Shown here in pieces: positions 33,788-63,643 of a stretch of DNA of 64,000 nt. The notes beneath the pieces were generated by a model. The model was given only the letters and a program-made list of their open reading frames with translations, did not search any database and was not told the origin of the DNA. Source of the stretch: Bacteroides sp. 214 (lineage in GTDB: Bacteria > Bacteroidota > Bacteroidia > Bacteroidales > Bacteroidaceae). Each line of letters begins with the position of its first letter. Positions within the stretch are counted from its first letter, which is position 1. The stretch lies in assembly GCF_010501015.1 (NCBI RefSeq), contig NZ_QVML01000007.1, positions 131,772 to 195,771 on the forward strand, read 5' to 3'. The translations under genes and the position numbers were made by a program.

Positions 33788-34285
33788 TTAGATATTAATT
33801 CCCATGATGTAATCATTCATATAGAAACCATTGCCTATGTGGAAGTCTCCTTGGCGTAGTTTGCGCATACCCAACCTTTCGTAAAACTGCACAGCTTTAT
33901 TATTGCGGTTTACATTGAGTTCCATCATGCAAGGGGTGGGGTGTACTTCTTTAATGTAAGCAATGGCTTGCCTGAACAAGAAACCACCAACGCCATGTCC
34001 TTGGAAGCCGGGTAGAACATATATCTTTTGCAGATGAAACAAATCCTTATCTTCTTGCTCTATAGAGAGATAACCACAAGGTTCGTCTCCTTTGTAGGCT
34101 ATAAAGTACACATGCCCGTCTACTTCTATTTGCTTGCGGATTTGTTCGGGTGCATACATCCATTGCATCATGTACTCTAGTTGTTCGGGCGAAAGTAACT
34201 CCCGGTAGGTATGTGGAAATACGCTGTGTGCCAATTCGTTTATCAGTTGGCAATCGGCTACGGTAGCTTTTCTTATTGTTAGCAT
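33788..34285 (-). CDS. GNAT-family N-acetyltransferase
   Basis: The 165-residue protein has the GNAT fold: ATVADCQLINELAHSVF at the start, motif A in LQKIYVLPGFQGHGVGGFLFRQA with the acetyl-CoA pyrophosphate loop QGHGVG (about 97-102), and MELNVNRNNKAVQFYERLGM near the end. It transfers acetyl from acetyl-CoA to an amine; the substrate is unknown. It forms a two-gene minus-strand unit with the phosphodiesterase. Confidence 0.92.
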   Translation of the reverse strand: MLTIRKATVADCQLINELAHSVFPHTYRELLSPEQLEYMMQWMYAPEQIRKQIEVDGHVYFIAYKGDEPCGYLSIEQEDKDLFHLQKIYVLPGFQGHGVGGFLFRQAIAYIKEVHPTPCMMELNVNRNNKAVQFYERLGMRKLRQGDFHIGNGFYMNDYIMGINI

Positions 34286-34306
34286 ATTGATGTTTTTATT
34301 GTGAAG

Positions 34307-34314
34307 CGAAATTA
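34307..34314 (-). promoter_or_regulatory. Possible -7 box of the GNAT-phosphodiesterase pair
   Basis: The minus-strand sequence TAATTTCG is one mismatch from TAnnTTTG and equals the box proposed for serC. It is 22 bp before the GNAT start. Confidence 0.35.
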
Positions 34315-34558
34315 GGAAATTTCTTTAAGACCATTGAATCTTTTTCTCATTTTTTTGTTCTTGTAAACTAAAAGCACCATTACGACCTTAGGTGAAGTAG
34401 GGCGATTGTGTTGAAATGATAGTGAAATAGGTTCTTTGAGGTGTTGATAGATGGTTTCTGCTATCTTTTTGTTTTTGGCTCATTCTATTTCTCTAACTTT
34501 TATTTCTCACGAATGTGCCCTACAAGCCTTGTGGAAGGGATTGTTTGGGGCGAAAAGT

Positions 34559-34743
34559 GCTTATGGACGAACTGTTCTCTGCCATAAGCAAACGAACCGT
34601 CTGCCATAAGCTCGCAGAGCGTTTGCTTATGGCAGACAGCTGTTCATCCATAAGCAGAGAAAGAAAAGTTGACTGTGTTTAAATATGGAACTGACTGTGT
34701 TCTTTCTATGTTCTGACTGAGTTCTTATTCAAAACTCAGTCAG
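34559..34743. repeat. 22-bp-phased intergenic array with in-place inverted heptamers
   Basis: Units start exactly every 22 bp: CTTATGG at 34560, CCATAAG at 34582 and 34604, CTTATGG at 34626, CCATAAG at 34648, then TGACTGT at about 34670 and 34692, TGACTGA at 34714 and TCAGTCA at 34736. CTTATGG is the reverse complement of CCATAAG, and TCAGTCA that of TGACTGA, so the heptamer flips while the 22-bp phase is kept. The 14-15 bp between heptamers vary. An ACAAGCCTTGT sequence lies on each side (34522-34532 and 34757-34767). Confidence 0.8.
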
Positions 34744-35022
34744 AAAAATACGTCCCACAAGCCTTGTATGGCTTGTTTTGAATAAGACGAGTGTTTTTTA
34801 CACTATTTGAGGCGTTTTTCCTTAAGCTGATTTCCTGCGATTTTTTCTGTCCATGCGTTGGTTTCTCTCATTTATCGCATTCTCGGAGGCTTTAGCAAAA
34901 TGATAGTTTGGAGTAGTTACTGTTTACTTCGGACGTTAATATTCTTCGATGACTCCAATTCAAAAGCCATCAACTATAACTGCTATTCTCTTTATTTGGT
35001 AGTTAATAAAAGATAAATTACA

Positions 35023-35043
35023 GTACTATGTTTTGCATAGTAC
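35023..35043. promoter_or_regulatory. Perfect dyad over the padR -33 element, likely PadR operator
   Basis: GTACTATG (35023-35030), TTTTG, CATAGTAC (35036-35043): a perfect 8-bp inverted repeat with a 5-bp centre. The TTTG at its centre is also the -33 element of the promoter, so a bound dimer would block RNA polymerase. The size and shape suit a PadR-family dimer; binding itself is inferred. Confidence 0.65.
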
Positions 35044-35063
35044 CAAAGTAATACATAGATTTG
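35032..35063 (+). promoter_or_regulatory. padR-pspC promoter
   Basis: TTTG at 35032-35035, a 20-bp spacer, and TAGATTTG at 35056-35063 fit the Bacteroidetes -33/-7 consensus. The padR ATG follows at 35086. It is the best complete promoter in the window. Confidence 0.7.
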
Positions 35064-35085
35064 TGCAGAAATTAATACTAACCAT

Positions 35086-35412
35086 ATGAATGCAGACAAT
35101 GTAAAATCGCAAATGAGAAAGGGGATGCTCGAATATTGCATCTTACTTTTGCTACGCAAAGAGCAGGCTTATGCTTCGGATATCATCCAGAAACTAAAAG
35201 AAGCACAGCTTATTGTTGTAGAAGGAACGCTCTATCCGTTGCTGACAAGGTTGAAGAATTCGGACTTGCTTAGTTATGAATGGGTAGAATCAACGCAAGG
35301 ACCGCCTCGTAAATATTACAGGCTAACAGAGAGTGGGGAGGTTTTTCTGTGTGAGTTGGAACTGGCATGGAAGGAACTGAACGATACGGTAAATCATTTA
35401 GCAACAAACTAA
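35086..35412 (+). CDS. PadR-family transcriptional regulator
   Basis: The 108-residue protein is a short PadR regulator: a winged helix with QMRKGMLEYCILLLLRKEQAYASDIIQKL, the wing GTLYPLLTRLKNSDLLSYEW, and PPRKYYRLTESG, followed by one short dimerisation helix. Such proteins repress their own operon and respond to envelope stress or toxic compounds. Its promoter carries a perfect dyad. It is 12 bp ahead of a PspC-domain membrane protein, so it probably controls that gene. Confidence 0.92.
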   Translation: MNADNVKSQMRKGMLEYCILLLLRKEQAYASDIIQKLKEAQLIVVEGTLYPLLTRLKNSDLLSYEWVESTQGPPRKYYRLTESGEVFLCELELAWKELNDTVNHLATN

Positions 35413-35424
35413 TAACTATATAAA

Positions 35425-36504
35425 ATGAAAAAGACACTTACAGTAAATCTTGGCGGAACTGTTTATAATATAGATGAGGACGCTTATGGCTTGTTAGATG
35501 AATACTTGTCTAACCTGCGCTTACACTTTGCGAAAGAAGAAGGTGGCGAAGAGATTGTAAACGATATAGAGACACGTATCTCCGAATTGTTTCAAGAAAA
35601 AATAACCAATACCAGCTATCAGGTAGTAACCATTGCAGTAGTTGAAGAAATAATAAAACGCATGGGTAAGCCCGAAGAGCTAACCGATGATGAGGAGGAA
35701 AAGCAAAGCGAATCAACCAAGCAGTATCAATACGATTCTTCGACCAAAAGGCAGTCGGAAACCCGTAAAGGACTTTATAGAAACCCCGACGATAAGATTC
35801 TTGGTGGTGTGTTTGGTGGCTTGGCTGCTTATTTGGGTTGGGATGCTACATTGCTTCGACTGGTTATGTTGTTTGCACTGTTGTTCGCAGTAGGATCTTT
35901 AATTCCTATCTACATTGTCTGTTGGATATTTATCCCTTTGGCGCGCACAGCTACCGAAAAGCTAAATATGCGTGGCGAGGCTGTTACCATGGAAAATATA
36001 GGGAAGACAGTAACCGATAGTTTTGAAAAAGCATCTAACGGGGTAAATGAATTTATCAAATCGGATAAGCCGCGTACGTTTTTTCAGAAGCTAGCCGATG
36101 TATTGGTTTCCATTGCCGGATTCTTGATAAAGATTCTTTTGGTTATCATAGCCATTGTTTGCAGTCCGTTGTTAATTGTTCTGGGCGTTGTGTTTGTAGC
36201 ATTGATAATTGCCGGTATTGCTGTGATAATAGGAGGCGGTGCGGTACTCTATGAAGCTTTCCCAACAGTAGAATGGGGTTTCCTTTCGGCAGGACCGATG
36301 GCTACTATTGTAGCCAGCATTGCCGGTGTAATACTTGTGGGTATTCCGTTGGTTAGCCTTGTCTTTACAATTCTTCGTGGCACATTCAATTGGCAACCTA
36401 TGGGAAGCGGATTGAAATGGACGCTTTTTATCATGTGGGTGGTAAGTAGTATAATCTTTATATGTACGTTGGCAGAACAAAATTGGCAGGTTCCTTTTTG
36501 GTGA
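35425..36504 (+). CDS. PspC-domain membrane protein
   Basis: The 359-residue protein starts with a soluble region (about 1-110, with coils and an acidic stretch DDEEEKQSE), then has a PspC domain near 113-175 (KGLYRNPDDKILGGVFGGLAAYLGWD and the following helices), then four or five more membrane helices. PspC proteins sense or buffer inner-membrane stress. With the PadR regulator it forms a common Bacteroidetes two-gene unit. The last codons lie in the left arm of the hairpin at 36483-36514. Confidence 0.88.
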   Translation: MKKTLTVNLGGTVYNIDEDAYGLLDEYLSNLRLHFAKEEGGEEIVNDIETRISELFQEKITNTSYQVVTIAVVEEIIKRMGKPEELTDDEEEKQSESTKQYQYDSSTKRQSETRKGLYRNPDDKILGGVFGGLAAYLGWDATLLRLVMLFALLFAVGSLIPIYIVCWIFIPLARTATEKLNMRGEAVTMENIGKTVTDSFEKASNGVNEFIKSDKPRTFFQKLADVLVSIAGFLIKILLVIIAIVCSPLLIVLGVVFVALIIAGIAVIIGGGAVLYEAFPTVEWGFLSAGPMATIVASIAGVILVGIPLVSLVFTILRGTFNWQPMGSGLKWTLFIMWVVSSIIFICTLAEQNWQVPFW

Positions 36505-61039: not shown

Positions 61040-61127
61040 TGACTGTATTTGTAGTAAGAAACCAGTGAGAAATGCTTCGAAAACCAGTGAGATGTGAAGC
61101 AAAAATCAGTCAGAAACTACACAGCCT
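61040..61127. repeat. 22-bp-phased array, CCAGTGA/TGACTG family
   Basis: Units start at 61040 (TGACTGT), 61062 (CCAGTGA), 61084 (CCAGTGA) and 61106 (TCAGTCA), exactly 22 bp apart. The first and last heptamers are near inverse, and the same TGACTG/CAGTCA family is seen in the array at 34670-34742. Confidence 0.75.
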
Positions 61128-61145
61128 AAAGCTCTTATTTCAATG

Positions 61146-61299
61146 CTTATGGTATTTACCTCGTCAGCCATAAGCAAATGCCCCTTCGTCCATAAGCAAA
61201 CGACCCTTCAGCCATAAGCAAACAGAGTGTTTGCCATAGGCAGATGGTTGGTCTGCCTATGGTTTGTGCCCCGTCAGCTATGGTTTGTCAAAATTATGG
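61146..61299. repeat. 22-bp-phased array, CCATAAG family
   Basis: Units start at 61146 (CTTATGG), 61168, 61190 and 61212 (CCATAAG), 61234 (CCATAGG), 61256 (CCTATGG) and about 61277 (GCTATGG). The steps are 22 bp, the last 21. CCTATGG is the exact reverse complement of the CCATAGG one unit before, so the heptamer is inverted in place. The same heptamer family occurs at 34560-34654. Confidence 0.8.
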
Positions 61300-63579: not shown

Positions 63580-63643
63580 ATACTTGACGCGTCAAGTATA
63601 AAGAGTACACGCTTCAAGTATAAAGAGTTGACGCGTCAAGTAT
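63580..63643. repeat. 22-bp tandem repeat with embedded palindrome
   Basis: A perfect 20-bp palindrome (63580-63599, core CTTGACGCGTCAAG) begins a tandem array in which TCAAGTA recurs at 63592, 63614 and 63636, 22 bp apart, with AAAGAG between. TTGACGCGTCAA occurs again at 63628-63639. Confidence 0.85.

Follow-up and report, generated by a model that had tools for sequence, protein, structure and literature searches.

Dispersed intergenic arrays of Bacteroides sp. 214 place unrelated short heads on a 22-bp lattice in both orientations

Repeats of the REP/BIME/REPIN kind are characterized, in the excerpts drawn on here, as short, dispersed, intergenic and partly palindromic sequences that form mosaics in both orientations (PMC3733652, PMC6006769), and a CGTC-tagged class of REP is there reported from Bacteroidetes (PMC3733652). 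The BrickBuilt MITE of P. gingivalis is portrayed in the excerpted source paper as an intergenic, species-limited element with an internal 23-nt tandem repeat in up to 22.8 direct copies, predicted stem-loops and TIRs like those of the IS5 family (PMC4596501). Minute hairpin-associated inversions, in which short segments between inverted repeats occur in either orientation, are described in part of the literature on plastid spacers (PMC2903610).

The arrays reported here resemble REP and BIME, as so characterized, in being short, dispersed, intergenic and present in both orientations, perhaps also in being partly palindromic, and differ from them in their fixed 22-bp period and several unrelated heads. 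BrickBuilt, a 23-nt direct repeat in the description at hand, is set apart on that description, the period here being 22 and the units running in both orientations. Its host, P. gingivalis, presumably belongs to the same bacterial order as Bacteroides sp. 214. Unlike our arrays, the plastid inversions are by the account given single loops, without a lattice or dispersed arrays. Adjacent transposase sites of about 22 bp are found at the ends of Tn7, Mu and CAST elements; those rows bound gene-bearing autonomous elements, whereas none was seen here and orientation is mixed. No description of 22-bp-lattice arrays was found in searches of the open-licence PubMed Central literature.

The window, that is the whole stretch of 64,000 nucleotides of Bacteroides sp. 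214 DNA that was analysed, holds the following features.

33788..34285, minus strand: GNAT acetyltransferase gene, flanking (PF13673 and others)
34512..34912 (ends approximate), plus strand: dispersed repeat element containing arrays A and B, with nine genomic copies
34558..34594, plus strand: left arm of an imperfect 37-nt palindrome, arms 89% complementary
34559..34655, plus strand: array A, five 22-bp units with head GCTTATGG in the order + - - + -, unit centres at 34563, 34585, 34607, 34629 and 34651
34620..34656, plus strand: right arm of the palindrome, the arm pairing being present also in the consensus fold of the nine copies
34670..34745, plus strand: array B, four 22-bp units with head TGACTG (TTCTGACTG), the final unit inverted
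35086..35412, plus strand: PadR-family regulator gene, flanking (PF03551)
35425..36504, plus strand: PspC-domain gene, next after padR (PF04024)
61059..61264, plus strand: second composite, CAGTGAGA-type units at 61059-61092 plus six CCATAAG/CTTATGG-type units
63592..63643, plus strand: third array, 22-bp units TCAAGTATAAAGAG.., a third head family

Nine heptamer heads stand in exact 22-bp register between 34560 and 34742, as read from the sequence and from 7-mer pairs at lag 22: CTTATGG at 34560, CCATAAG at 34582 and 34604, CTTATGG at 34626, CCATAAG at 34648, TGACTGT at 34670 and 34692, TGACTGA at 34714 and TCAGTCA at 34736. The sequence-only reading of this DNA had listed nine consecutive heads, all of which are present at the phase it gave, and its placing of them in a divergent spacer, with a GNAT gene on the minus strand and padR on the plus strand, is confirmed by profile matches to both. 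An array does lie at 34559-34743 as stated there; the feature extends beyond that interval and is genome-wide. Nor do the linkers vary freely, as had been supposed: the two 37-nt arms are 89% complementary, and the linkers of array A are 0.82 identical between the nine copies of the element. The axis of the palindrome, 34607, is the centre of unit 3 of array A, and since this axis falls on a lattice point, in-phase flips require no special enzyme. CTTATGG and TGACTG are two separate head families, and within this element array B shares the phase of array A.

Both families are also contained in the second composite at 61059-61264, where the six CCATAAG/CTTATGG-type units follow the order + - - - - + with centres at 61149-61259. 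A module, AAAGCTCTTATTTCAA(A)TG, found at 61110-61145 of the window and near position 1411 of locus L012, connects CAGTCAGAA-type to CTTATGG-type arrays in different places, and its occurrence in both implies that composites reuse parts and not heads alone. Scanning of 34250-35120 gave one promoter-like site against 2.8 in shuffles, outside the arrays, and two terminator-like sites against 0.8, none within the arrays; Rfam at gathering score gave no match in the whole window.

Seven of the nine copies of the dispersed element, the window copy included, are near full length. The other eight are 74-83% identical to the window copy, mean pairwise identity drops to 0.40 and 0.36 beyond the element ends, and no terminal inverted repeats were obvious by eye at the termini in this genome. 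The arrays of the copies align without internal gaps and, with reverse-strand copies converted, the order + - - + - is kept in all nine, which indicates that heads are not readily flipped. Heads of array A are 0.94 identical between the copies against 0.82 for its linkers; in array B the two are barely different (0.79 against 0.76). When the register of array A was shifted, the head register ranked second of 22 shifts, behind shift -3.

The same spacing pervades the genome. Noncoding DNA of a 464-kb sample yields 350 exact 8-mer recurrences at lag 22, where other lags average 3.4. In 400 kb of contig C11, a contig picked for its many matches with the 400 kb taken regardless of single arrays, direct 8-mer repeats amount to 337 at lag 22, 47 at lag 21 and 10 at lag 23, with harmonics at lag 44 (173) and lag 66 (91). 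Neighbouring GCYTATGG heads within 80 bp of each other are spaced by multiples of 22 in 137 of 139 cases, 43 of the 137 being in opposite orientation; all told, the 44 opposite neighbours lie exactly 22 apart in 41 cases, 44 apart in two and 23 apart in one. For CTGACTG, neighbours of the same orientation stand 22 or 44 apart in 18 of 20 cases and 21 and 43 apart in the remaining two; all 16 opposite neighbours are at multiples of 22 when the flip axis is set at the central C, an axis shift of our own. Chance periodicity is ruled out by the lag-22 excess and the head spacing. Among 50 CYTATGG-type arrays, many chosen for the head pair and the nine element copies included, 121 pairs of neighbouring units face the same way and 52 face opposite ways.

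Reverse-complement heads in the same phase are accordingly real, as claimed for the window, and recur genome-wide once heads are tracked. The reverse-complement autocorrelation that had been proposed for detecting them fails to do so, with 11 inverted pairs at lag 22 and 16 at lag 23 in the window and, over the 400 kb of C11, 86 pairs of inverted 8-mers at lag 22 where lags 9-29 give 74-95; it is flat at lag 22 because hairpin stems populate every lag. Head families in C11 include CYTATGG, CAGTCAGAA/CAGTGAGAA, TCAAGTATAAAGA.., AACGGTT.. and others, and the period is constant. A single lattice for A and B heads everywhere was rejected, phase being shared in 8 of 22 close pairs and not in the other 14; seven of the eight phase-sharing places are element copies, and the eighth, L139, matches the element weakly.

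The 400 kb of C11 contain 34 array clusters, three of which overlap a mechanical ORF of 100 aa or more. Under stricter gene calling, 31 clusters fall within spacers of at least 150 bp and three outside; the 31 occupy 25 spacers, namely 7 of 15 convergent, 13 of 46 tandem and 5 of 30 divergent ones. Relative to transcription, 11 A arrays are sense and 12 antisense, and B arrays divide into 5 and 6, so an RNA-strand-specific function, being without strand bias, was discarded. Within tandem spacers 10 A arrays are closer to the upstream 3′ end and 13 to the downstream start, and all 11 B arrays are closer to the 3′ end of the upstream gene.

Two Y1 transposase genes (PF01797) were detected in the genome by profile search. 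Lag-22 arrays were not found within 1.5 kb on either side of them (3.3-kb loci), and membership in the RAYT/REP system was rejected, the genes being present without 22-bp arrays beside them. The repeats next to these genes are CCCGTAGCGGG-like in L168 (about 1300-1500) and of the kinds GCGCTGAAAGCGCGACATA.. and CCTAGGGTGAGC.. in L169 (about 1850-2050); letters related to them occur next to an A array in L018. A tandem repeat by the Y1 gene of L169 (2009-2404; contig C6 of this genome) leaves several frames open across both strands, which code for repeats such as YVCTFA.

The head pair GCTTATGG-N14-GCTTATGG, with 57 occurrences in Bacteroides sp. 214, was encountered in one of 60 relatives (two hits). 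The lattice itself is more widespread. With the PspC-domain gene at 35425..36504 as the anchor for locating orthologous loci (closest homologue found, 56% identity in a Mediterranea MAG), noncoding DNA of 74 Bacteroidales loci around PspC homologues gives 266 recurrences at lag 22 against a mean of 8.4, the next highest being 49 at lag 21. Thirty-two stretches from other genomes of the genus give 92 against a mean of 4.2, other families of the same order 3 against 0.8, and other orders of the same class 9 against 2.2, where the top other lag has 24. The count is 0 in other classes of the phylum (mean 0.1) and 0 in 50 kb of E. coli, controls that are small (9.9 kb and 3.4 kb of noncoding DNA, respectively). 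Given the values for the same class and for other families of the order, the outer taxonomic limit of the trait is not sharp. Its strength also varies between genomes of the genus, lag 22 scoring 52 in G012, 18 in G026, 11 in G021 and 2 in G030 over 120 kb each. Three GGCTTATGGGTTC units at 22 bp in G026:C1:3848951-3849002 (L200 8950-9021) have a head resembling those of our arrays, by homology or by chance.

Of 11 loci inspected, two, L043 (Candidatus Phocaeicola excrementigallinarum) and L045 (an uncultured Bacteroides), have a 22-bp array of unrelated sequence in a GNAT/PadR-like spacer, which lies between a 166-aa minus-strand and a 115-aa plus-strand ORF matched to GNAT and PadR by size and place; these arrays look as if they occupy the same spacer as the window array. 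The MAG loci L097, L102, L103 and L107 carry arrays about 100-250 bp upstream of an ORF of about 1135 aa, and their sequences are all different. Other short periods (37, 23, 14) prevail in the relatives' loci L075, L084, L096 and L104. Searches of plasmid and phage collections at E 1e-3 gave no match to the arrays; the head pair is present in 18 viral contigs, which by our judgement we take to be about chance given the size of the collection.

A search of 119 genomes of the genus for a further group of arrays, defined by CGTCTGAC-N14-CGTCTGAC, gave 3 to 30 hits in each of 8, against a single hit of the reversed-pattern control across all 119; 61 genomes drawn from the phylum gave no hit, and the control one. 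From 36 loci 40 arrays were parsed, 32 of them with exactly four units. When a unit is written D for a strong half-site on the left, I on the right and P on both sides, 14 arrays read DDPI, 12 DPII and four DDDP, with ten other patterns once each. At orthologous loci, whose aligned stretches are 77-99% identical, the 4-bp unit centres may be wholly exchanged. DPII is found in all five orthologues from five other genomes (L249, L255, L266, L275, L277), counted with a reverse-strand locus turned and the degenerate P of L266 allowed, the centres being of CANNTG type in three and CTATAG type in two; L265 and L272 are both DDPI with every centre exchanged, and the pattern is equal in the pairs L273/L276, L251/L282, L260/L270 and L267/L269. 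Unit number differs at some loci, L259 having three against four in L267 and L269, and L258 being a two-unit remnant against four in L279. In L256/L268 the middle segment is inverted in place and all four centres are exchanged within an unchanged length of 88 bp, the flanks being 94% identical over 3.1 kb and their nearest 150 bp 70% and 90%. Because the four centres changed along with the inversion, this points to rewriting or replacement of the array, and it shows that in-place inversion occurs over species time together with such rewriting.

Within-array centres are alike in 131 of 168 pairs (0 of 2000 shuffles as extreme), and centres flanking P are complementary beyond shuffles (0 of 5000), for example AACG/CGTT in L280 and ATCT/AGAT in L271, whereas the complementarity of weak halves does not exceed that between arrays (3478 of 5000); these values come from 28 arrays, namely the 40 less four DDDP arrays and eight with a unit number other than four (two with degenerate P kept), and the shuffles overstate independence, as the 28 include orthologues and genomes with a centre bias of their own. 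That bias is CANNTG in G021 (12 of 12) and G175 (21 of 24) and TATA in G012 (18 of 24) and G170 (14 of 20). REP repeats carry a GTAG or CGTC foot next to a hairpin; heads of the G012 group start with CGTC, a likeness in letters to the CGTC-tagged REP class. In the G012 loci L253, L254, L257 and L261 a CTATAG-type array is followed about 70 bp further on by a CANNTG-type array with an inverted repeat between them, and these pairs form a separate dispersed element of 73-91% identity.

The 400-kb sample of Bacteroides sp. 214 contains 34 arrays; they belong to several head families, keep exact spacing, turn their heads either way around a fixed centre and occur as dispersed copies, and other Bacteroidales genomes have the lattice with different sequences. 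What the arrays have in common is the lattice and not one sequence or fold. The explanation that we prefer, and to which we give an even chance, is that the arrays form a family of REP/BIME- or MITE-like elements, non-coding and scattered between genes, whose strict 22-bp lattice carries heads that a putative DNA-binding protein reads. A protein-binding array had been suggested from the window alone; that part stands by inference, the protein being putative, and the in-phase flips noted with it do recur. A row of DNA-binding proteins would best explain exact spacing combined with indifferent orientation. The proteins, whether of a nucleoid, regulatory or element-spreading kind, would sit in a row along one face of the helix, and 22 bp as two helical turns would mean about 11 bp per turn and not 10.5. 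Selection on spacing may maintain the lattice, orientation being of little import, and in-phase flips may stem from the copying of an array back onto itself or out of a second array; because symmetry axes fall on lattice points, inverted copies come to lie in register. For binding we count the lag-22 excess, the 137 of 139 spacings, the orientation indifference, the A heads (0.94 against 0.82), the lattice amid differing sequence in L043, L045, L097, L102, L103 and L107, the palindrome axis on a unit centre and the L256/L268 inversion with exchanged centres, together with 14 of 38 arrays that are strictly phased yet lack marked RNA structure. Against it we count the B heads (0.79 against 0.76), the second rank of the A head register, the strong structure of the other 24 arrays, the covarying CGTCTGAC centres and the mere 2 recurrences at lag 22 in 120 kb of G030.

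The chief rival is a structural role, for which the CGTCTGAC group makes the best case. The arrays would then work as DNA cruciforms or as mRNA 3′ hairpins (stabiliser, terminator or nuclease barrier), the lattice being a by-product of fold-back copying, which we regard as possible if rather unlikely. On either strand the folding of the window element far exceeds that of shuffled sequence (z -9.5 and -11.2), marked RNA structure (z below -2) is seen in 24 of 38 arrays of this genome against 15 of 80 control spacers, and 9 of the 56 pairs in the consensus fold of the nine copies have at least one kept double change. The complementary centres on either side of P in the 28 CGTCTGAC arrays (beyond all 5000 shuffles), the occupancy of 7 of 15 convergent against 5 of 30 divergent spacers and the lie of all 11 B arrays in tandem spacers toward the upstream 3′ end also suit this view. 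Yet 14 of 38 arrays are strictly phased without marked structure, A arrays are split 10 to 13 between upstream 3′ ends and downstream starts, the weak halves of the CGTCTGAC group show no such complementarity (3478 of 5000 shuffles), and exact 22-bp steps are unnecessary for a fold. Dyad symmetry of the whole unit reaches significance in 2 of 38 arrays here (10 of 40 elsewhere) and arm covariation in A units is weak (position 7 alone, z 6.5), which contradicts, for this genome, the idea that each unit is a full hairpin with covarying arms. The covariation of CGTCTGAC centres would be explained also by structure or by hairpin-templated copying, and copying alone could be the source of the lattice.

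The remaining explanations fare worse. Old tandem duplications of habitual period, flipped by chance template switching and functionless, would make the arrays neutral minisatellites, in keeping with the intergenic 23-nt tandem repeats that P. gingivalis is described as carrying (PMC4596501) and with the other periods (such as 14, 23 and 37) of some relatives. This is improbable: one period is shared by unrelated sequences in many genomes with most other lags low, heads are kept though linkers differ between arrays, and in the CGTCTGAC group 32 of 40 arrays are precisely four units long. If the arrays were rows of transposase-binding sites such as those of Tn7-, Mu- or CAST-like ends, left in small non-autonomous elements, this would account for dispersed copies, for the typical four contiguous units and for the outer inverted repeats seen by eye around the paired G012 arrays of L254, L257 and L261. 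No transposase gene was found beside the arrays, Y1 transposases being the class searched, orientation is mixed inside one array, phage and plasmid collections are without a match and target-site duplication is not established, and we consider this origin very unlikely. Least credible is the enzyme, also raised by the sequence-only reading, that turns short segments over, here a site-specific one flipping single heads in place as a switch. L256/L268, with its equal 88-bp length, reversed middle and flanks 94% identical over 3.1 kb, is what such an enzyme might leave; all four centres are altered there as well, + - - + - is kept in 9 of 9 copies and DPII in 5 of 5 orthologues, and 22 bp makes a very short circle for recombinase synapsis. 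Stable flip patterns are evidence against frequent inversion, and an active inverting enzyme is unlikely.

Beyond the preferred reading of a putative protein on the lattice, a doubtful but wider proposition is that Bacteroidaceae and their relatives possess a genome-wide system in which a putative trans-acting protein reads arrays in 22-bp steps, the code of heads and centres being changed jointly throughout a genome's arrays, whose places, length and lattice are constant. A fixed 22-bp geometry with unrelated sequences is unusual among bacterial repeats, and its recurrence suggests that a major lineage of the gut has a putative factor, or process of copying, behind it. The question can be tested directly on the orthologous arrays whose centres are exchanged. 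Bound by a protein, the lattices would offer it many sites along the chromosome where genes meet; built by hairpin copying, they would be a natural record of template switching.
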